Source: an uncultured Microbacterium sp.
Lineage (GTDB): Bacteria; Actinomycetota; Actinomycetes; Actinomycetales; Microbacteriaceae
DNA length: 33,914 nt
Reading direction: 5' to 3'
Assembly: GCA_947647645.1 (NCBI GenBank)
Contig: CANSLE010000003.1
Coordinates: 1 to 33,914, forward strand
Below the pieces are notes generated by a model that was not told the origin of the DNA, ran no database searches, and was given only the letters and a program-made list of their open reading frames with translations. Both the position numbers and the translations under genes were made by a program. Position 1 is the stretch's first letter, and each line of letters begins with the position of its first letter. Positions 2,719 to 14,101 of this stretch are shown here, piece after piece.

Positions 2719-3994
2719 AACTAGTCATACTCGAACAAATGACCTTGAGATAAAGGTCCAGGCGTTCGACATAAGAAGCGTCGGAGATCTCTCCGGCGCT
2801 TTTCGTGTTGGTGGGCGTGTGGGAGCTGTTGAGGGCGGCGTCGCGGATGTCGGCGACGAGCGGCTGGAACTCGCGACCGACGTGGAGAAGGTGGCCGTCG
2901 TCGTCGACCCAGATGCGGCCGAAGAAGGCGGCGAGGAGCTTGCGCTTCACCGCCCCGGTCGCCGCTGTGAAGAGGGCGTCGGGCCTGGCCATCAGGTCGA
3001 GGTAGCTGAGGACCATTTCGGTGCGTTGTTGGAGTGACTCAGTGGTGGTGTCGAGGCCGGTGCGGACCTCGTGTTTCTTGATCTGGAGGTTGCGGAGCCG
3101 GGAGCGGAGCTTGTCGGTGGGGAGCGCACCGTCGGCAGCGAGATCGACGAGGCGTTCTTCTTGTACCTCGAGCTTCTTCAGCTCCTTCTGAAGGCAGGCG
3201 CGCTGCTCCTCCTGGCGAGTCAGGATGTGGCGCAGTGCCGCCTGGACTTCCTCTTTCGCGGTCTCAATGGACTCGGGGGAAAGACGCAGACTGGCGAACT
3301 CGCGGGTGAGGGCGCGTTCGATCTACAGTGACGGGAGGAACGGCAGGTCGCAATGACGGTCCTGTCTACCCCGGCATATGAAGTACTCGTAGATCTGATC
3401 GGCATGGTTCTTGGCCTCGGTGAAGATGAGGCGGTGCTCCTGGCCGACGTCGTGGCAGCGACCGCAGTGCAGCATGCCGCGGGCGAAGTGGTTGTGGACG
3501 CGGTCACGCTGTCCCCTCTTCACGCGGGCATCGATCACCTGTTGCACGCGGTCGAAGAGTTCGGGCGTGATGGGTGCTTCGTGCCTGCCCGGATAGAGGT
3601 GGCCTTTGAAGGTGACCATGCCGAGGTAGTACGGGTCGCGGAGGATCATGCCGAGTTGGCTGCGAGAAAGTGGCCGCTCCGGCCACTTCGTGGACTTCCT
3701 TGTGGTGAGGCCCTGTTCGGCGAGCATCGCGGCAAGCTTGGTAGTGCTGTACTCACCGGTTGCGTACTGCTCGAACGCCCACCGGATCAGCGGGGCACGC
3801 TCTTCGTCGATACCGATGGTGTTGACGAGACGTCCGTCGAAGTCTTTGCGGGCGTTGGTGTAGCCGAGTTTGGCGCGACCGACCGTGCCGCCGTTCTTCG
3901 CGTTGTTGAGGGATAGAGCCGTCCTCACGAACGTGCTCTTCCACCGGTCGCTCGCGCACCACCCTCTACATTCACGACCATGCCTCGTTCGCAT
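2675..3994 (-). pseudogene. Large serine recombinase remnant: N-terminal catalytic domain missing, in-frame amber stop, C-terminus antisense to tRNA-Met
   Basis: SLNNAKNGGTVGRAKLGYTNARK...RWAFEQYATGEYSTTKLAAMLAEQGLTTRK...ILRDPYYLGMVTFKGHLYPGRHEAPIT...C-x2-C zinc-ribbon region. Same frame continues after TAG (3323-3325) as IERALTREFASLRLSPESIETAKEEVQAALRHILTRQEEQ...VAGAGLEPATSRL*. Confidence 0.85.
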
Positions 3995-4056
3995 TCAGCA
4001 GTTCAGACAGAGAGCATTCCCCGTTCCCTGGCCGCATGTGTGAAGGAGGACATCTC

Positions 4057-4725
4057 ATGGTGCAGGGCATCATCATCCCCGCATCGGAATCGAAGGCAGT
4101 GGTCTGCGCCGAGTTCGCGACGCTCGAGGACTACCAACGACTGGTCGGCGGCTGGATCGAAGCGGTCGACATTCCAGTTCTCAATGCGACGATGTACGTC
4201 AACGAAGAAGGGCCGCTTCGGGGGCTGCCGTTCAACCGGCGTGCCACCTTCCCATTGTGGTTTCACGTGCCCGCAACTCGTGGCCGCGCGCGGCTTGTCG
4301 ACAACGCGGTACCGGTCGGGGGTGGAGAGACCGCTGGCAACCGCACCGACCTGTCGACCGCGGTATCGCAACTGCTCCTCGGGCACGGGGAACACAACGT
4401 CAGCACCCGCGAGCCGGGTGGTACGCGGTGGCGATCCGAGCCGGAGCCGCACGAGGACTATCTCGAAGCGATCATCTGGGCCACGGTGCTTCAGGAGTAC
4501 GCGCCAGGCCCGCAGGTCCGTGAGCGCCCGGTCGACGACAACTACGAGAAGCAGCGACACTCCGCACATAGCGGTGGGCACCGCAGGAATGCGAGTCCTA
4601 TGTCGGTATCCACCGCCTTTTCGATATGTGGCGCGATGACAGTTCACGCACGCCGGTCAGCCGGAGGGTCGCGCGGACGATCAGTTGGGTCAGCAAAATC
4701 GAAGCACGCCCGGCTGTGCGGCTAG
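4057..4725 (+). CDS. DUF3846-type protein (plasmid/phage accessory), C-terminus possibly degraded
   Basis: MVQGIIIPASESKAVV...DYQRLVGGWIEAVDIP...MYVNEEGPLRGLPFNRRATFPLWF...RGRARLVDNAVPVGG; RBS AAGGAGG at 4043-4049; tail after ~residue 170 looks like random-frame sequence. Confidence 0.6.
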   Translation: MVQGIIIPASESKAVVCAEFATLEDYQRLVGGWIEAVDIPVLNATMYVNEEGPLRGLPFNRRATFPLWFHVPATRGRARLVDNAVPVGGGETAGNRTDLSTAVSQLLLGHGEHNVSTREPGGTRWRSEPEPHEDYLEAIIWATVLQEYAPGPQVRERPVDDNYEKQRHSAHSGGHRRNASPMSVSTAFSICGAMTVHARRSAGGSRGRSVGSAKSKHARLCG

Positions 4726-4750: not shown

Positions 4751-4758
4751 GTGTTCGG
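4751..4758. repeat. Left 8-bp target-site duplication (GTGTTCGG) of ISL3 element
   Basis: Identical to 6216-6223. Confidence 0.93.
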
Positions 4759-6215
4759 GGCTCTTCGGACATTCGGTGGGGTGAGGCTCGCCGGGTGAGG
4801 TTCGAGGGGTAGGGGTCGAGGTCCCCGAGGATCAGAAGCGCTAACTCTCTGATCGACTACGAGGACCTCGACGTGCTTCACCCTACTTCGGGGTGCGCTG
4901 ACGCGCGCTCCGCCTTCTGCCCCTGTCCCCGCTGCGACGTTCTGCTCGGCTTGGAGGGCGTCCATGTCGAGCACGTCGACCGCCGAGACGCACTGCTGAT
5001 CGTGACGGTCTCAAGCCCCGCGTTCCCGACGGGGTGCCCGTCGTGTGGGGTCCTCGCGGCCGGCGGCGGGTGCCGAAGCCGGGTGCTCCATGACGTGCCC
5101 GGCGTATCGCGAGTGCGGATCGTATGGCGGCAGCGGACATGGCGATGCGTCGACGAGGGCTGCGAGCGGAAGGCGTTCGTGGAGCAACTGCCGACTCTGG
5201 TCGCTCGGCGCGGGTCAATCACCAAGCGAGCCATCGACTGGGCGGTCGGGCAGTTGCGGCGCGAGCATGCCACAATCGCGGGACTTGCCCGTCAGCTCGG
5301 AACGTCATGGAAGACGGTGTGGCGCGCCATCGAGCCCGAGCTGGTGCGGCTCGCGGCTGACGAGTCCCGGTTCGATGGCGTCACCACGCTCGGTGTCGAC
5401 GAGCACGTCTGGCATCACGTCGACCCCCGTACGCGCGGCCCGAAGGAGCTGACCGGGATGGTCGATCTGTCCCGTGACAGTCGCGGAAAGACGCGGGCCA
5501 GACTGCTCGACCTCGTGCCGGGCAGATCGGGGAAGGCCTACGCAACTTGGCTCGGTGCACGCGGCGACGCGTTCCGAAACAACGTGAAGGTCGCCGCGTT
5601 GGATCCGTTCGCCGGTTACAAGACCGCGATCGACGACAAGCTCGACGACGCCGTCGCGGTCCTCGATGCGTTCCACGTCGTCAAGCTCGGCACCGCCGCC
5701 GTGGACGAGGTCCGCCGCCGGATCCAGCAAGACACCCTCGGGCATCGCGGCATGAAGGGCGACCCGCTCTACGGGATCCACACCATCCTCCGCGCCGGAG
5801 CCGAGAACCTCACCGAGAAGCAGCGGCTCAGGCTGGCAACGGCGCTCGAGGCCGACCCCGCGCACGACGAGGTGTTCATCGCATGGCAGTGCGCACAGCA
5901 GCTGCGTTCCGCCTACCACCAGAAGGACCTCACCGAGGGGCGACGCATCGCGGAGAAGGTCGTCGAGTCGTTCCACAGCTGCCCGATCCCCGAGATCGCA
6001 CGCCTGGGCCGCACCCTCCGCCGCTGGCGCGACGCGTTCCTGGCCTACTTCACCACCAGCCGCGCGAACAACGGCGGCACCGAAGCCGTCAACGGGATCA
6101 TCGAGCTGCACCGCCGCCTCGCCCGCGGCTACCGCAACCGGCACAACTACCGCCTCCGGATGCTCCTCGCCGCCGGCGGACTCACCCCATGACCCCACCG
6201 GATGTCCGAAGAGCC
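4759..6215 (+). mobile_element. Complete ISL3-family insertion sequence
   Basis: 23-bp IRs GGCTCTTCGGACATTCGGTGGGG (4759-4781) and CCCCACCGGATGTCCGAAGAGCC (6193-6215), one mismatch; identical 8-bp flanks GTGTTCGG (4751-4758 and 6216-6223); full-length transposase. Confidence 0.95.
4873..6192 (+). CDS. ISL3-family transposase
   Basis: Zn-finger-like CPSCGVL..., GVDEHVWHH, LDPFAGYKTAI, LDAFHVVKL, SRANNGGTEAVNGIIELHRRLARGYRNRHNYRLRMLLAAGG. Confidence 0.95.
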   Translation: MLHPTSGCADARSAFCPCPRCDVLLGLEGVHVEHVDRRDALLIVTVSSPAFPTGCPSCGVLAAGGGCRSRVLHDVPGVSRVRIVWRQRTWRCVDEGCERKAFVEQLPTLVARRGSITKRAIDWAVGQLRREHATIAGLARQLGTSWKTVWRAIEPELVRLAADESRFDGVTTLGVDEHVWHHVDPRTRGPKELTGMVDLSRDSRGKTRARLLDLVPGRSGKAYATWLGARGDAFRNNVKVAALDPFAGYKTAIDDKLDDAVAVLDAFHVVKLGTAAVDEVRRRIQQDTLGHRGMKGDPLYGIHTILRAGAENLTEKQRLRLATALEADPAHDEVFIAWQCAQQLRSAYHQKDLTEGRRIAEKVVESFHSCPIPEIARLGRTLRRWRDAFLAYFTTSRANNGGTEAVNGIIELHRRLARGYRNRHNYRLRMLLAAGGLTP

Positions 6216-6223
6216 GTGTTCGG
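6216..6223. repeat. Right 8-bp target-site duplication (GTGTTCGG) of ISL3 element
   Basis: Identical to 4751-4758. Confidence 0.93.
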
Positions 6224-6675
6224 CAGAGCGGCGATTCTGGGCTACCGCTCCCGCGGTTCCCTTCCGACCCTGACCCTGCCCCTGACGTCCGGCGCAAGTA
6301 CACTCGATGAGGCGCAGTCCTCGAAGTGGAGTTTCAGTGCTCACTCGCTTGAGCGTTCGTGCCCCCGCTGGGCCGGGCTGCTCCTTTGCCCCGTGCGCAT
6401 GGACAAACGCGCCCGACATCGCTCGGGGAGTGACTTCGGCGCGCGTTCCGTCCGGCGCCCCTTCGCGCCTGGAGAGTCTTTTTTCGCAGTTCAGTGGTAG
6501 TTTTCGTCGACGCAACAGGACTGACATCGCATCGATACCCATTCAGCGAACTCTTATGTCGCGCTTCGAATGTGTTCAGCCATGGAACTTTCGGTCGATG
6601 GCTCACGGCGCTAGGTTCGAAATGAAAGTTCACGACGCCTTCTTACGAAATCACCATTCATCATTGAGGGGTAAT

Positions 6676-7737
6676 ATGCGTGCTTTGAAGATCGGATCGA
6701 CTGAAGTTTCTGACACTTCTCCGGCGTATGTAATCGCCGAGATCGGTCACAACCACGGCGGAGATCTCGCTGCCGCCAAGGATCTGTTTGTCGCCGCCGC
6801 AGAAGCAGGTGCATCCGCGGTAAAGCTGCAGAAGCGAGACAATCAGGGCCTCTTCACTAGGGAAATGCTCGAAAAGCCGTATGGCGGTCGCAATAGCTAC
6901 GGTGCAACCTACGGTGAGCATCGGCAGGCGCTGGAATTCGGTGAACGTGAGTATCGAGAGCTTGCGAGTCTCGCCGCCGAGCTAGGGATCGACTTCTTCA
7001 CCACCGCTTTTGATGAGGTGAGCCTGGACTTCATCGTGAGTCTCGGTCTTCCCGCAATCAAGATTGCCTCCGGGGATCTCACCAACTCGCCGCTGCTCGA
7101 AGCGGCCGGCAAGACCGGCGTGCCGGTCATCGTGAGCTCCGGTGGTGCAAACCTGTCGGACGTTGTGACCGCGGTGTCCGTTCTGGACGGTGTGGGCGCC
7201 AGCTTCGCTCTGCTGCAGTGCACGGCCACCTATCCCGCACAGCCTGAGCAGCTGAATCTTAGGGTAATCGATACCTATCGACGGCTTTTCCCGAACGCCG
7301 TGATCGGATACTCCGGCCATGACGTCCTTCCTACGGCGCCGATTGCGGCGTACACGCTAGGAGCCCGGGTAGTGGAGCGGCACTTCACCCTCGACAAGGG
7401 AGCTCCGGGGAGCGACCACCACTTTTCTCAAACCCCCGCTGAGCTGAAGGCGATGGTGGAGGATCTCGCCGTAGTGCGGGTGGCGCTCGGCTCCTCGGTC
7501 AAACAGCAGCTGCCCGAAGAAGCCCCGGCCCTGGCAAAGATGTCCAAAACGCTCGTCGTTCGCGGGAATCACCGGGCGGGTGCTGTTGTGGACCGGAGCA
7601 TGCTCGTTGCGAAGACGTCAGGGCGGCCGGGGATTCGCCCGGCAGCATTGGGCGAGGTCGTCGGATCACGTCTCGCTCGAGATGTTGAGGATGAACACGT
7701 ACTCCGGTTCTCAGATCTCGTGGATGCGACGGCGTGA
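6676..7737 (+). CDS. NeuB/NANS-like sialic-acid-type synthase (PEP-dependent ulosonic acid synthase) with C-terminal SAF domain
   Basis: YVIAEIGHNHGGDL, AVKLQKRDN, EKPYGGRNSYGATYGEHRQALEF, KIASGDLTN, LLQCTATYPAQPEQLNLRVI, VIGYSGHD, VVERHFTLDKGAPGSDHHFSQ; SAF region LVVRGNHRAGAVVDRSML. Start at ATG 6676 after GAGGGG; upstream extension to 6307 lacks family similarity. Confidence 0.9.
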   Translation: MRALKIGSTEVSDTSPAYVIAEIGHNHGGDLAAAKDLFVAAAEAGASAVKLQKRDNQGLFTREMLEKPYGGRNSYGATYGEHRQALEFGEREYRELASLAAELGIDFFTTAFDEVSLDFIVSLGLPAIKIASGDLTNSPLLEAAGKTGVPVIVSSGGANLSDVVTAVSVLDGVGASFALLQCTATYPAQPEQLNLRVIDTYRRLFPNAVIGYSGHDVLPTAPIAAYTLGARVVERHFTLDKGAPGSDHHFSQTPAELKAMVEDLAVVRVALGSSVKQQLPEEAPALAKMSKTLVVRGNHRAGAVVDRSMLVAKTSGRPGIRPAALGEVVGSRLARDVEDEHVLRFSDLVDATA

Positions 7738-8519
7738 GCGCAGGAGCGCCGGTTGCGCTGATCACCGGCGCCGCCGGCGGCCTCGGGACGGGGATGTGTG
7801 AGGCGCTTCTCAAGCGGGATTGGAGGGTGCTCGCCCATGTCCGGAACGTCGAGCAGGGCCGACAGCTCGCTGCCGCGGGCGCGCATGTCCTGGCCGCGGA
7901 CCTAAGCTCGCGCACTCAGGTAAGGAGCCTTATCTCACATGTCCGACGAACGACTGCGCGGATCGACGTCCTCGTCAACAATGCCGCGCTCGGATACGGA
8001 GCTCCGGACATTACCAGGCAGGTGACGGAAGACGGCATTGAATCACGTCTCGCTGTGAACGTCCTCGCACCCCTCGCTCTCATGGAGGGACTCAAAGGTC
8101 TGCTAGGTAACGGGAGCCGTGTCCTCAATATGGCGTCGACCAATCAGGAGTTAGTCGACGTCGATGATCTTCAGCTGATCCGTTGTTGGAACCGTGAGGC
8201 CTCGTACCGACAGTCAAAGGCGCTCATGCTCGTCTTGACGCAGGTGTTCGCGGAGCGCTGGAAGCCTCTAAACGTGGCGGTGAATGCAATCCATCCTGGG
8301 ACCCGCTTGCCGACGAAGATCGTGTTGGAGAGCGGCGTCGAGCCCATGGGTTCGCTTGAACGCGGGATCGAGATTTGCGTGGATCAGCTATTGCAATCCG
8401 ATCCCGGCAAGGCGATGTTTGTCAGAGCAGGCGAGTTACCCGTGCGACTCGACGAGCTCTACCCCGTGACTGAGGAGGGGGAGGCGCTGGTCGCGAAACT
8501 GAAGGATCTTCTGGCATGA
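7734..8519 (+). CDS. SDR-family oxidoreductase
   Basis: TGAAGGLG cofactor motif, VLVNNA, YRQSK active site; GTG start overlaps upstream TGA. Confidence 0.88.
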   Translation: MSAGAPVALITGAAGGLGTGMCEALLKRDWRVLAHVRNVEQGRQLAAAGAHVLAADLSSRTQVRSLISHVRRTTARIDVLVNNAALGYGAPDITRQVTEDGIESRLAVNVLAPLALMEGLKGLLGNGSRVLNMASTNQELVDVDDLQLIRCWNREASYRQSKALMLVLTQVFAERWKPLNVAVNAIHPGTRLPTKIVLESGVEPMGSLERGIEICVDQLLQSDPGKAMFVRAGELPVRLDELYPVTEEGEALVAKLKDLLA

Positions 8520-9664
8520 CACTGAGTATCCGTGCGTGGGTCTCGACCAGGTTCTTGACGTTTTTTGTCAGCTGGGCGGTGTTCCAGTCCTACTGGGGCC
8601 TGTGGCTGGCGGACCGAGGCTTCTCGGTCAAGGAGATTGGCACTGCCGTCGCTTGTTCGCTGGTGGCGCGGTCCGTGACCGTCGCACTCATCTACCCAGC
8701 TTTGAACCGCCACGCGACACTGCTGAGGTTGAGCAGGGTGATGCCATGGTTGATCACAGCGGCCGCAGTCCCGTACATCGTCGTGACCGGCTTTCCCATG
8801 CTTGTTGTCGTCTCGGTGGTCTTCGGGCTGATCTACCCGATCATGTTGCCGCTCAACGAGACGGTCGCAACCGTCGCCGCGCGGCAGAAGCTGTTGCCGT
8901 ATGGGCCCACCCGGGCACTAGGCTCCGCTGGCTTCATGATCGGGACGCTCGTCGCGGGCTGGCTGGCCTCGGCACTTGGTACACCAGTCCTCGCTTACGC
9001 TCTTGTCGGATCATGTCTATTGATGGCGCTGATTGGCTTCATCCACCCTCGGGAAGCCGCGGCCCTCGATCTCCGAGGGTCCGGCGCGCACGGGTTCGTT
9101 GCTCTCTTCCGCAATCGTTCGTTCCTTGCCTGCCTGGCGATCGCAACGCTCGTGCAGGGCTCACACGCGGCGTACTACAGTTTCGGTGCGATACGTGCGG
9201 GAGAGATCTCCTCGCCGACCGTGGTGCCGTTGCTGCTTGTTCTCGCACCGCTCAGCGAATTCGCACTTTTCTCCCTGGCGCGTGCGAGGTTCGAAAGCCT
9301 TGGATACCAGTCGCTGTTCGCCATTGGTGCGCTGGTCGCCGCGGGACGGTGGGCACTTCTCGCCGTCGCCGGCAACTGGGAGCTTCTCGCCGTCTCCCAG
9401 CTCCTTCACGCCGGGTCCTACGCGACGACTCACATGGCATTCGCGATGTACGTCCGCGATCACATCGACGTCGACAACCAAGGCGCAGCGCAGGGGCTAT
9501 ACGCATCGCTCGCCATGGGGTTGGGCACCGCCGTGCTTACATTCGTCGCGGGGCAACAACTGAGTGCGAGTTTCTCCACTGCACTACTCACTATGGCGGG
9601 CGCAGCGGTCGTCAGCCTAATTTTCCTGCCATTGACCCGAGTCGACAGAAAGGCCGCCCCATGA
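8516..9664 (+). CDS. MFS transporter, HcaT/nucleoside-H+ symporter-like (MFS_1_like)
   Basis: ~12 hydrophobic segments; YGPTRALGSAGFMIGTLVAGWL and N-terminal FLTFFVSWAVFQSYWGLWLADRGFSVKEIG; ATGA overlap with upstream gene. Confidence 0.85.
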   Translation: MTLSIRAWVSTRFLTFFVSWAVFQSYWGLWLADRGFSVKEIGTAVACSLVARSVTVALIYPALNRHATLLRLSRVMPWLITAAAVPYIVVTGFPMLVVVSVVFGLIYPIMLPLNETVATVAARQKLLPYGPTRALGSAGFMIGTLVAGWLASALGTPVLAYALVGSCLLMALIGFIHPREAAALDLRGSGAHGFVALFRNRSFLACLAIATLVQGSHAAYYSFGAIRAGEISSPTVVPLLLVLAPLSEFALFSLARARFESLGYQSLFAIGALVAAGRWALLAVAGNWELLAVSQLLHAGSYATTHMAFAMYVRDHIDVDNQGAAQGLYASLAMGLGTAVLTFVAGQQLSASFSTALLTMAGAAVVSLIFLPLTRVDRKAAP

Positions 9665-10551
9665 CGCTGGATCTGACTGGCGCAAACACGCTCCTCGTGA
9701 CGCCATTCCACGCGGATGGTTCCATAGATGAACTCTCGCTCCGCCGACTCATCGACCATGTTATTGAGGGAGGAGCACGAGGCGTGATTCTGCTCGGTTC
9801 CACCGGAGAGTTCTTTTGTCTCACCCATGACGAGCGAATCCGTGTCACGCGGGCCGGGATCGCTCACGTCGCAGGTCGAGTCCCGGTCACCGTCGGTGTC
9901 GGTAGCGATGGTACCGCCGAAACCATCGAACTGACTGCCACCGCAGAGAATGCTGGCGCCGACTGCGTGATGGTCATTCCGCCCATCTATTTCGACAGCA
10001 GCGCCGATCCGCAGATAGCCCACTACACCGCCGTCGCCGCGTCGACGACGCTCGACGTGATGCTTTACGACGGATCAAACGGGATTCGTCTGACCGCACC
10101 GGTCCTTGAGCAAGCCAGCAGGCAGGCTCCGAACATCAAGTATGCGAAGATCGCCACCGCCGACCCCACTCTGTTCCGGATCTTCCGCGAGGCCGCGCCG
10201 AGCATCACCACAATCGTCGGAGAGGACATGATGCTGTTTCAGGGGTTACGAGCAGGCGGGAGAGGTTCTGCCACCGCGATCGGGAACATCTTGCCCCGTC
10301 AGATTGCCGCCCTACATCGGGCGCATGAGAACGGGGACGCCGAAGAGGCGTATCGGATCGCGACCTGGTTGTCTCCCGTCACGATGTTCCTGTCAGTACC
10401 CAAGGGAGGCTTCATCGCGAAGTTCAAGCACATCCTCGCGCTCGAAGGAATCATCGAGTCCGACCGGGTACGCGCCCCGCTCCTGCCCTTGACAGCCGAA
10501 GGAAGAGCGGAGATCGTCCAGGACGTCTTGCCACTTCTCGCCCGTGGATAG
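9661..10551 (+). CDS. DapA/NanA-family (class I aldolase-type) lyase/synthase
   Basis: LLVTPFHADGSID, GVILLGSTGEF, MLYDGSNG and Schiff-base Lys in IKYAKIATADP; ATGA overlap. Confidence 0.88.
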   Translation: MTLDLTGANTLLVTPFHADGSIDELSLRRLIDHVIEGGARGVILLGSTGEFFCLTHDERIRVTRAGIAHVAGRVPVTVGVGSDGTAETIELTATAENAGADCVMVIPPIYFDSSADPQIAHYTAVAASTTLDVMLYDGSNGIRLTAPVLEQASRQAPNIKYAKIATADPTLFRIFREAAPSITTIVGEDMMLFQGLRAGGRGSATAIGNILPRQIAALHRAHENGDAEEAYRIATWLSPVTMFLSVPKGGFIAKFKHILALEGIIESDRVRAPLLPLTAEGRAEIVQDVLPLLARG

Positions 10552-11227
10552 TCGCAAAATCGAAGGAGTGCTCTTCGACCTCGACGACACGCTTCTGGAT
10601 CACAGTGGTTCCGCTAAGCGCGCCTTTAGCCAGTGGGCATGCGCGAACAGGATCCAGCCCACCTCGAAAAATTGGTCCCTTTGGCGTGAAACCGAGCATC
10701 GATTTCCGCCGGAACCACACAAGAGCGTCCCCATGTCCCGTACTCGGACGAAACGAATGCAGGCGTTCTTGGCAGCCGTGCTTCCGGGGTCCGCGACATC
10801 TTCAGACCGGAATCTCCTGAAGCTCTACGACGACTACCTCCTTCGGTACAGCGAAAGCTGGAGTCTTTATCCCGACACTCTCGACTCGTTGGATCTACTA
10901 CGCGGCAGATTCCGGCTGGGGATTCTCACCAACGGCGCGACACTTATGCAGCGAAGAAAACTACGCCGCACCGGATTGAACAGCCGCGTCGAGTTTGCGC
11001 TGATCTCCGAAGAGATCGGGGTTGCGAAGCCGGCCCCAGAGGCCTTCATCATCGCGTGTGACCGGTTACGACTCCGCCCCGACGCAGTCTTGTACATCGG
11101 AGACGATCCGCAGATTGATGTCGACGGAGCCCGCAACGCAGGTCTGCACAGCACGCAAGTCCTACGAAAGACCGCCGCAGGACCAACGGCGCTACGCGAC
11201 TTGTGCGAATCCCTCTTGAAGACATAG
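10544..11227 (+). CDS. HAD-family phosphatase, YjjG/NANP-like
   Basis: GVLFDLDDTLLDHSG, LGILTNGATLMQRRKL, EIGVAKPAPEAF, LYIGDDPQIDVDGARNAGL; 8-nt overlap with upstream gene (GTG start). Confidence 0.87.
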   Translation: MDSRKIEGVLFDLDDTLLDHSGSAKRAFSQWACANRIQPTSKNWSLWRETEHRFPPEPHKSVPMSRTRTKRMQAFLAAVLPGSATSSDRNLLKLYDDYLLRYSESWSLYPDTLDSLDLLRGRFRLGILTNGATLMQRRKLRRTGLNSRVEFALISEEIGVAKPAPEAFIIACDRLRLRPDAVLYIGDDPQIDVDGARNAGLHSTQVLRKTAAGPTALRDLCESLLKT

Positions 11228-11726: not shown

Positions 11727-12177
11727 TTGCAGGGCAAGCATGGTCATCTCAGTCGCGAGCAGAAGCAGCTCGCGATCCGTCTCCACTCGAAGGGGTGGCG
11801 TCTCATCGACATCGCCCGCGAAGTCGGCTGCACGGCGCCGATGGTCGGGAAGATGGCCCGGGAGGGGCGTCACCTCGATGCGAAGCCGTTCGGGTGGGAG
11901 CCGCGGGAGGGGCATCTGACGGTCCTCGACCGCGAGCAAATACTCGTAGGGCTTGCCCGCGGTGACACACTCACCGCGATCGCGCGCAGTCTTGGGCGGG
12001 GCGGTGTCGACCGTCAGCCGCGAGGTCAAGCGCGGCGGCGGACGCGACGGGTACTCGGCGTGGCGGGCGCATGAAGACGCGCGTGAGCAGGCGCGCAGGC
12101 CGAAGCCATTCAAGCTCGACGGCGGCCGGCTACTCCATGCCGTGACCGCGGAGTTGGAGAAGCTATGGTCACCGCAG
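11727..12177 (+). pseudogene. IS30-family transposase remnant: N-terminal part, 1-nt frameshift, truncated by IS3 element
   Basis: HLSREQKQLAIRLHSKGWRLIDIAREVGCTAPMVGKMAR...LTVLDREQILVGLARGDTLTAIARSLGR | (extra G in run ~11998-12001) | AVSTVSREVKRGGGRDGYSAWRAHEDAREQARRPKPFKL...LEKLWSPQ. Confidence 0.85.
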
Positions 12178-12210
12178 GGGTCTGCCGCACCGGCAGGTGA
12201 CGGTTTGTAG

Positions 12211-13092
12211 TCATGCCGCGAGGGCGATGTTGGTGTTCATGATTGCTTCGTGCTCGATGGGGGTCAAACCGTGCAGCCGTTTCTGGCGGCGGCGTCGGTG
12301 GTAGGTGCGTTCGATCCAGGTGACGATGGCGATGCGGAGCTGTTCGCGGGTGTCCCAGGATTGCCGGTTGAGGACGTTCTTTTGCAGCAGGCTGAAGAAC
12401 GACTCCATCGCGGCGTTATCGCCCGCCGCGCCGACGCGGCCCATCGATCCGACCATCCCGTGGTGGTGCAGAGCGCGGACCATCTTGCGGGCGCGAAATT
12501 GCGATCCTCTGTCGGTGTGGACGACGCAGCCTGCGACGTTCCCGCGCCTGGCGACGGCGTTGCCCACCGCGTCGACGGCGAGACGCGCTTTCATCCGGTC
12601 GCTGATCGAGTAGCCCACGATCCGATTCGAGAACACGTCCTTGATGGCGCAAAGGTAGAGCTTGCCTTCCGCGGTCTTGTGTTCCGTGATGCCGCTGAGC
12701 CAGAGCCTGTTCGGGGCGCCCGCGGTGAACTCGCCACGCACGAGATCGTCGTGAACGGGCGGGCCGGGACGTCGGCCCTTCCCACGACGACGCTTGCCGA
12801 ACGTGGACCACCAGCCGTTGTCGCGACAGATCCGCCACGCCGTCCGCTCGGCCATGACCTCACCCGCGTCGCGGGCCTCGTCGAGCAGGAACCGGTAACC
12901 GAACTCCGGATCGTCGCGGTGCGCGTCGAACAGCGCGTTCGCACGATACGCCGCGATGAGTTCGGCATCGGTGATGGGGTTCGCCAACCACCGGTAGTAG
13001 GGCTGGCGAGCGAGCTTGAGCACCCGGCACGTCACCGCGACGGGAACACCGTCAGCGGCGAGCTCGGTCACGAGCGGGTAAAGCCTTTTCCC
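12211..13092 (-). CDS. IS3-family OrfB (rve integrase domain), expressed by -1 frameshift from OrfA
   Basis: KRLYPLVTELAADG...WRICRDNGWWSTFGKRRRGKGRRPG...LWLSGITEHKTAEGKLYLCAIKDVFSNRIVGYSISDRM...VHTDRGSQFRAR...SMGRVGAAGDNAAMESFFSLLQKN...YHRRRRQKRLHGLTPIEHE. Confidence 0.92.
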   Translation of the reverse strand, partial: GKRLYPLVTELAADGVPVAVTCRVLKLARQPYYRWLANPITDAELIAAYRANALFDAHRDDPEFGYRFLLDEARDAGEVMAERTAWRICRDNGWWSTFGKRRRGKGRRPGPPVHDDLVRGEFTAGAPNRLWLSGITEHKTAEGKLYLCAIKDVFSNRIVGYSISDRMKARLAVDAVGNAVARRGNVAGCVVHTDRGSQFRARKMVRALHHHGMVGSMGRVGAAGDNAAMESFFSLLQKNVLNRQSWDTREQLRIAIVTWIERTYHRRRRQKRLHGLTPIEHEAIMNTNIALAA

Positions 13093-13409
13093 GGCAGGTT
13101 CGCCTGCGACAGATACGCCGCCGCACGCCGCAACACCTCGACCTCCTGCTCGAGCAACCGGATCCGCTTTCGCGCCTCCCGCAGCTCGGCACCTTCGGAC
13201 CGCGTCACACCCGGCTTTGCACCATCCTCGACGGCGGCACGCCGCATCCACTTCGTGAGCGTCATCGGGTGAACACCGAAGCCGGCCGCGATCTGCTCGA
13301 TGGTCACTCCGGGCTCGCGGTTCCTGGCGACACGCACGACGTCGTCACGGAACTCACTCGGGTAAGGCTTGGGCACAATGACATCCTTCCAGGGCACCCC
13401 TCCGGGCAA
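13068..13409 (-). CDS. IS3-family OrfA
   Basis: PYPSEFRDDVVRVARNREPGVTIEQIAAGFGVHPMTLTKWMRRA...ELREARKRIRLLEQEVEVLRRAAAYLSQANLPGK. Confidence 0.9.
   Translation of the reverse strand: MPGGVPWKDVIVPKPYPSEFRDDVVRVARNREPGVTIEQIAAGFGVHPMTLTKWMRRAAVEDGAKPGVTRSEGAELREARKRIRLLEQEVEVLRRAAAYLSQANLPGKGFTRS
13086..13092 (-). promoter_or_regulatory. Slippery heptamer G_GGA_AAA for programmed -1 frameshifting OrfA->OrfAB
   Basis: Minus strand CC GGG AAA AGG C; zero frame ...LPGKGFTRS*, -1 frame ...PGKRLYPLVTEL joins OrfB. Confidence 0.8.
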
Positions 13410-13445
13410 CCCAACTCAGATGTCACCTGCCGGTGCGGCAGACCC

Positions 13446-13632
13446 GTTCGTGGACGCTAACGGGGTGCTTCGCCTTACGCTCAAGACGGGAAGCGAACGG
13501 ACGCTCGGAAGTGAAACGCCGCACGTGGAGGTCCGCCGCGAGATGGGTCACCGCATCGACCCGGCGACCGGGGAACCCACCTCGCGAAGGTCCCCAGGTA
13601 ACCACCGAGAGATAACCTGGGATTGCGAATGA
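13446..13632 (+). pseudogene. 3' stub of a probable polymorphic toxin, 5' part lost at the IS3 end
   Basis: Open frame DPFVDANGVLRLTLKTGSERTLGSETPHVEVRREMGHRIDPATGEPTSRRSPGNHREITWDCE*; compact charged C-terminus with RIDP..GEP..RRSPGNH, overlapping the next gene by ATGA. Confidence 0.55.
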
Positions 13633-14074: not shown

Positions 14075-14101
14075 ATGACCCCACCGAATGTCCGAAGAGC
14101 C
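14075..14101. repeat. Orphan ISL3-family right end
   Basis: ATGACCCCACCGAATGTCCGAAGAGCC matches 6189-6215 at 26/27 positions, including the transposase stop codon; no transposase adjacent. Confidence 0.85.

Follow-up and report, generated by a model that had tools for sequence, protein, structure and literature searches.

NeuB-type synthases are usually read as sources of cytidine monophosphate (CMP)-activated surface sugars. The closest described relatives of the locus studied here are the NANS plus NANP route and its bacterial ketodeoxynonulosonic acid (Kdn)-9-phosphate counterpart, in which a phosphoenolpyruvate (PEP)-dependent synthase is paired with a HAD phosphatase; the Kdn version needs no epimerase to make N-acetylmannosamine (ManNAc). 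A Kdn-9-phosphate synthase has been demonstrated to convert mannose-6-phosphate (Man-6-P) and PEP to Kdn-9-phosphate (PMC6200933). Here, we analyzed a 33,914-nt contig (the window) of a 2.6-Mb draft genome of an uncultured Microbacterium sp. (G000; 81% complete). On its forward strand, at 6676-11227, five intact genes follow one another in the same orientation and specify a NeuB-fold PEP synthase, a short-chain dehydrogenase/reductase (SDR), a major facilitator superfamily (MFS) transporter, a dihydrodipicolinate synthase (DHDPS)-fold aldolase and a HAD phosphatase. We give about even odds (a probability near 0.5) to the reading that this operon is accessory, is carried on an island and encodes the synthesis of a free, sialic-acid-like derivative of a 3-deoxy-2-ulosonic acid. 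No description of the gene set was found in open-licence papers.

Results

A sequence-only reading of the window had proposed a unit of five overlapping, translationally coupled genes, and its open reading frames (ORFs), coordinates and junctions (GTGA at 7734, ATGA at 8516 and 9661, and 8 nt at 10544) all held, as did its remark that the block is poorer in GC than its flanks (61.1% versus 68.4% in the rest of the window). The search for a conserved neighborhood that it had advocated recovered two further copies of the set with gene order unchanged, one in Microbacterium sp. VKM Ac-2870 (L002) and one in an uncultured Microbacterium (L073), whose NeuB proteins are 93% and 76% identical to that of the window, respectively. 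The first three overlapping junctions are retained in both loci, the second being GTGA rather than ATGA in L073; the fourth, where the HAD gene begins with an overlapping GTG, persists in L002, whereas L073 has a different HAD start. All ten gene comparisons of the window with these two loci gave ratios of nonsynonymous to synonymous divergence (dN/dS) of 0.05 to 0.24, with stop codons absent, so the genes are under constraint. Within each pair, dS is alike across the five genes (0.60 to 0.79 against L002 and 1.7 to 2.2 against L073), as expected if they travel together. The host gene GlmU, our only yardstick, has dS values of 0.68 and 0.76; the L073 operon is thus more diverged than that gene, a hint that this copy may have been acquired separately, although its values are near saturation and the comparison rests on one gene.

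Close relatives of the DHDPS protein occur in 3 of 298 Microbacterium genomes and, among 396 genomes sampled evenly across the class, solely in the window's own genome. Matches in 301 Streptomycetaceae and 251 Pseudonocardiaceae genomes (families deduced from the strain names of the queries) were confined to the query genomes, and a plasmid search with the same protein at an E value of 1e-50 returned none. Besides the three Microbacterium loci, carriers were found in Streptomyces coacervatus (L020) and Saccharothrix sp. ALI-22-I (L006), making five in all. The latter pair have the rearranged order MFS-SDR-DHDPS-NeuB-HAD, and their DHDPS, SDR and NeuB proteins are homologues of those in the window (47 to 48%, 37 to 39% and 55 to 56% identity). 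Their MFS proteins gave no match to the window transporter, and their HAD proteins belong to another, beta-PGM-like family. That a phosphatase recurs in these loci though drawn from a different HAD family suggests that the pathway requires a dephosphorylation step.

All five operon proteins match their Pfam families far over the cut-off, and the best-matching NCBIfam equivalogs (the NeuB, MFS PRK11128, dapA and YjjG models) every one fall under their curated cut-offs. The synthase belongs to the NeuB superfamily, with 239.8 bits to PF03102 and K53, K129, H215, H236 and D247 all conserved (N. meningitidis numbering). It scores 267.1 bits against the sialate synthase model TIGR03569 (cut-off 399.65) and 188.6 against the pseudaminic acid synthase model TIGR03586 (cut-off 340.25). 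We take the roles of these residues, and of E134, N184 and Arg314, to be those they presumably have in N. meningitidis NeuB; the catalytic and metal residues are conserved, E134 is replaced by Asp and N184 by Ala, and the Arg314 segment reads KTSGRPG. The structural model (predicted local distance difference test score [pLDDT], 93.5) superposes on N. meningitidis NeuB 1xuu over its full length, with a template modeling (TM) score of 0.91.

A tree was built from the window synthase, 83 relatives and three PDB references, legionaminic and pseudaminic synthases not being included. This tree groups the window synthase with actinobacterial relatives (support, 0.997) and places the spore coat protein SpsE, the synthase of Leptospira and two ordinary NeuB genes of Microbacterium outside that clade. 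Within the reach of this tree, and given the TIGR03586 score, the spore-coat, pseudaminic or legionaminic affiliation that would have told against the sequence-only reading did not emerge. The motifs EKPY..NSYG.TYGEHR..LEF and LQCT..YP, which that reading had likened to vertebrate NANS, are present but invariant or nearly so across the clade, including members adjoining CMP-sugar synthetases; as common property of the clade, they are no specific marker of a NANS pathway.

Most relatives of the synthase lie in two other kinds of cluster. One, recovered from metagenome-assembled genomes (MAGs) of many phyla (L024, L036, L045, L047, L061, L066, L067, L077 and others, and the archaeal MAG L034), combines NeuB with a KdsC-like HAD protein, an SDR, an aldehyde dehydrogenase (ALDH), a CMP-synthetase-family protein and a transketolase. 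The other is actinobacterial (L003, L005, L007, L010, L019, L023, L046, L059 and others), joins NeuB to an SDR, a transketolase, an ALO-type FAD oxidase and a class IV aminotransferase, with an RraA-like aldolase and an ATP-grasp L-amino acid ligase added in some clusters, and suggests a so far undescribed biosynthesis of a polyhydroxy amino acid or a related compound. A CMP-synthetase-family gene is carried by 33 of the 82 clustered loci around NeuB relatives, and three shared HAD families likewise occur at 33 of the 82. The usual arrangement also exists in the genus: in another Microbacterium genome (L084:5-1495), an ordinary NeuB gene adjoins an ORF resembling CMP-sialate synthetase.

The DHDPS-family protein matches PF00701 with 184.7 bits, and its Schiff-base K163, together with Y136, S47 and Y110, is invariant in the five members. 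A housekeeping DapA identity was rejected, as Arg138 is absent from the alignment and the score is 160.2 bits against a dapA cut-off of 206.15; a separate DapA-like gene, scoring 264 to 268 bits, is present in every Microbacterium carrier. The nanA equivalog TIGR00683 is likewise not reached (99 bits; cut-off 382). The model has moderate confidence (pLDDT 80) and resembles YagE, DapA and sialate lyases to a similar degree (TM about 0.9), so that aldolase and dehydratase are not separable on this basis. The window genome holds a third gene of the family (L120; G000:C78:2923-3789; 98.8 bits).

Motifs are intact in the SDR (TGxxxGxG, NNA and YxxxK) and in the HAD protein (DxDxT and GDDxxxD). The latter scores 114.2 bits against the YjjG model TIGR02254 (cut-off 159.9), and the transporter scores 100.7 bits against PF12832 and 209.6 against PRK11128 (cut-off 259).

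Because the window genome is incomplete, G726/G728 and G083 served as the main basis for calling genes absent; G726 and G083 are assigned to the same genus as the window genome. A CMP-nonulosonate synthetase was not found, PF02348 matching GlmU only in G000, G728 (VKM Ac-2870) and G083 (99% complete). UDP-GlcNAc 2-epimerase (NeuC; PF02350) had no match in G726 (100% complete) or G083 and two in the window genome, and NanE (PF04131) had none in G000, G726 or G083. These absences from the near-complete carriers disfavor the canonical sialic acid pathway. An N-acetylneuraminic acid (Neu5Ac) or cell-surface pathway seems unlikely from the gene inventory of these carriers, in which no NeuC or NanE supply of ManNAc or ManNAc-6-phosphate was found, the AGE family not having been searched.

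The operon is flanked by insertion sequences (ISs) on both sides, as the sequence-only reading had stated (Table 1). The upstream ISL3 element is bracketed by a perfect 8-bp duplication of its target (GTGTTCGG; 4751-4758 and 6216-6223), and the genome contains a further copy of it (84%); at 14078-14101 its 24-nt end occurs alone, possibly as what is left of an older copy. A composite transposon was rejected: the duplication of its own marks the ISL3 element as a separate insertion, not a transposon arm, and the downstream IS is of another family. Of the mobile cassette proposed earlier, carriage on an island is supported and the composite-IS form is not. The truncated serine recombinase upstream is taken as the remnant of an integrative element.

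By blastn, window 6532-11209 aligns with L002:7856-12534 at 82% identity, with a second patch of homology to VKM Ac-2870 at window 3910-4169. The operon of that strain is surrounded by genes for a serine recombinase, a replication-relaxation protein, Lsr2 and MT-A70. Upstream of the L073 operon (5817-7452) are a TetR gene and an AvrD-family gene (PF05655; 185 bits), making autoregulator control of that copy possible. The S. coacervatus set adjoins a DHQ_synthase-family cyclase, a DegT aminotransferase, HAD-IIB and Gfo/Idh proteins and two glycosyltransferases, and its cluster (L098:700-18564 and L097:17713-19781) also holds MATE, glyoxalase-domain and cupin proteins beside the NeuB/DHDPS/SDR/HAD/MFS set. 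These neighbors raised the idea of a hikizimycin-type link (kanosamine plus a long-chain sugar), for which no relevant paper was found.

Table 1. Annotated features of the window, with positions, strands and supporting evidence
Feature	Position	Strand	Evidence
NeuB-fold ulosonate synthase (PEP-dependent), 353 aa; catalytic residues complete; clade outside the sialate synthases	6676..7737	+	PF03102, TIGR03569, structural model, residue table
SDR, 261 aa, GTG start, 4-nt overlap	7734..8519	+	PF00106; TGxxxGxG, NNA, YxxxK motifs
MFS transporter, MFS_1_like / HcaT-like, 382 aa, 4-nt overlap	8516..9664	+	PF12832, PRK11128
DHDPS/NAL-superfamily class I (Schiff-base) aldolase or dehydratase, 296 aa, 4-nt overlap	9661..10551	+	PF00701, conserved residues, fold
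HAD-IA phosphatase, YjjG-like, 227 aa, GTG start, 8-nt overlap	10544..11227	+	PF00702, TIGR02254; DxDxT, GDDxxxD motifs
Upstream leader conserved with VKM Ac-2870; cassette homology ends here on the left	6532..6675	+	blastn
Complete ISL3-family IS, inverted repeats at both ends, 8-bp target-site duplication GTGTTCGG	4759..6215	+	PF01610, 171.7 bits
Downstream IS with rve integrase core	12211..13409	-	PF00665; 34-nt inverted repeats 12168-12201, 13422-13455
Truncated serine recombinase, PF07508 without resolvase domain; beside tRNA-Thr and tRNA-Met (2535-2718)	3323..3994	-	

Discussion

The five coupled, constrained and co-inherited genes, with their catalytic residues conserved, are best explained by an accessory pathway to a free ulosonic acid derivative. 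NeuB would join PEP to a phosphorylated aldose, yielding the phosphate of a 3-deoxy-2-ulosonic acid, and the HAD enzyme would take this phosphate off; the SDR and the Schiff-base DHDPS-family enzyme would then reshape the free acid, and the MFS protein would transport the product, or possibly the substrate. The product would remain free, not becoming a cell-surface sugar, because no CMP activation follows. The lack of a CMP-nonulosonate synthetase, 2-epimerase and NanE in the near-complete carriers favors such a product made from a common sugar phosphate. The free Kdn/Neu5Ac-like or novel ulosonic acid envisaged from the sequence thus keeps its free-acid part, and Neu5Ac itself has become unlikely. 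The context of the relatives, i.e., the S. coacervatus cluster and the TetR/AvrD genes of L073, leads us to prefer a small-molecule role.

The phosphorylated substrate, the order of steps, the identity of the product and the directions of the aldolase and of transport are what we infer within this scheme, and several points weigh against it. The DHDPS fold accommodates both aldolases and dehydratases. The promiscuity of HAD and SDR enzymes makes the phosphate step a prediction, and an HcaT/LacY-like transporter could be an importer. Finally, the suggested specialized-metabolite context comes by analogy from the relatives, not from within the window.

A bolder extension of the free-acid pathway would have an undescribed higher-carbon sugar acid arise through two pyruvate-unit C-C bond steps (PEP synthase and class I aldolase), be exported, possibly under autoregulator control, move on islands among actinobacteria and serve as a building block in a cyclitol-containing natural product cluster of S. 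coacervatus; this we consider doubtful.

The alternative that survives best, though unlikely, is a plain free-Kdn pathway, in which Man-6-P and PEP would yield Kdn-9-phosphate, the HAD enzyme would release Kdn, the DHDPS protein would act as a Kdn lyase controlling its level, the MFS protein would export it and the SDR would perform minor tailoring. It gains from the precedent for the first step (PMC6200933), from the lack of NeuC and NanE in near-complete operon genomes and from the Ala at N184 and the altered Arg314 region of the synthase. The synthase has, however, been compared here with no characterized Kdn-9-phosphate synthase; moreover, a lyase and a synthase in a single operon would form a futile cycle, and the SDR is left without an explanation. 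The mannose-6-phosphate isomerase profile PF01238 proved uninformative, matching just 2 of 14 control genomes.

CMP-synthetase-family genes at two-fifths of the clustered loci (33/82) and the ordinary NeuB genes of Microbacterium, one of them adjoining the NeuA-like ORF of L084, could instead point to a precursor pathway for a wall or surface polymer of the teichulosonic-acid type, activated by an enzyme encoded elsewhere or of unknown family. With GlmU as the only PF02348 match in VKM Ac-2870 and G083, no glycosyltransferase in the Microbacterium operon and a rare, patchy distribution, such a role is decidedly unlikely. We rate as very unlikely a sugar-remodeling cycle, in which PEP condensation, SDR oxidation or epimerization and retro-aldol loss of pyruvate would give an altered aldose for export: a synthase and a pyruvate aldolase-type gene do co-occur here and, with the RraA-like protein, in some related actinobacterial clusters, but the cycle would be costly, the aldolase might work in either direction and we know of no precedent. 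A catabolic role, in which the MFS protein would import a ulosonic acid from outside the cell and the DHDPS protein would cleave it as a lyase, would suit the HcaT/LacY-like transporter and the NAL-like aldolase fold (including C. glutamicum N-acetylneuraminate lyase [NAL] 5c54) but is the least probable, as the first gene is a biosynthetic, PEP-consuming NeuB, NanE was not found in the genomes searched and the operon has no kinase.

Together with its relatives in biosynthetic-type clusters, the window operon points to a branch of NeuB enzymes feeding free or small-molecule products. The set is compact enough to be cloned as one piece, making a direct test of the product feasible.

The pairing of a PEP-dependent ulosonate synthase with a HAD phosphatase, already proposed from the sequence and supported here, is what the operon shares with the NANS plus NANP and Kdn-9-phosphate pathways; it differs in adding an SDR, an MFS protein and a DHDPS-family enzyme, in having no CMP synthetase and in a synthase clade in which no characterized member was found here. 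The synthase resembles N. meningitidis NeuB (1xuu, 2wqp) in its whole fold, including the C-terminal antifreeze-like domain, and in its catalytic and metal residues, whereas identity is 26% in the structural alignment, and the changes at E134, at N184 and in the Arg314 region and the score under the TIGR03569 cut-off set it apart. Likewise, the DHDPS protein shares Lys163, Tyr136, Ser47, Tyr110 and the overall fold with NAL, DapA and YagE but has YDG in place of the YN.P motif, lacks the DapA Arg138 and stays under the dapA and nanA cut-offs. The MAG-type and actinobacterial clusters draw their NeuB from the same wider clade; the window operon is without their transketolase, ALDH, CMP synthetase, aminotransferase and ALO oxidase and is distinguished by its DHDPS and MFS genes.

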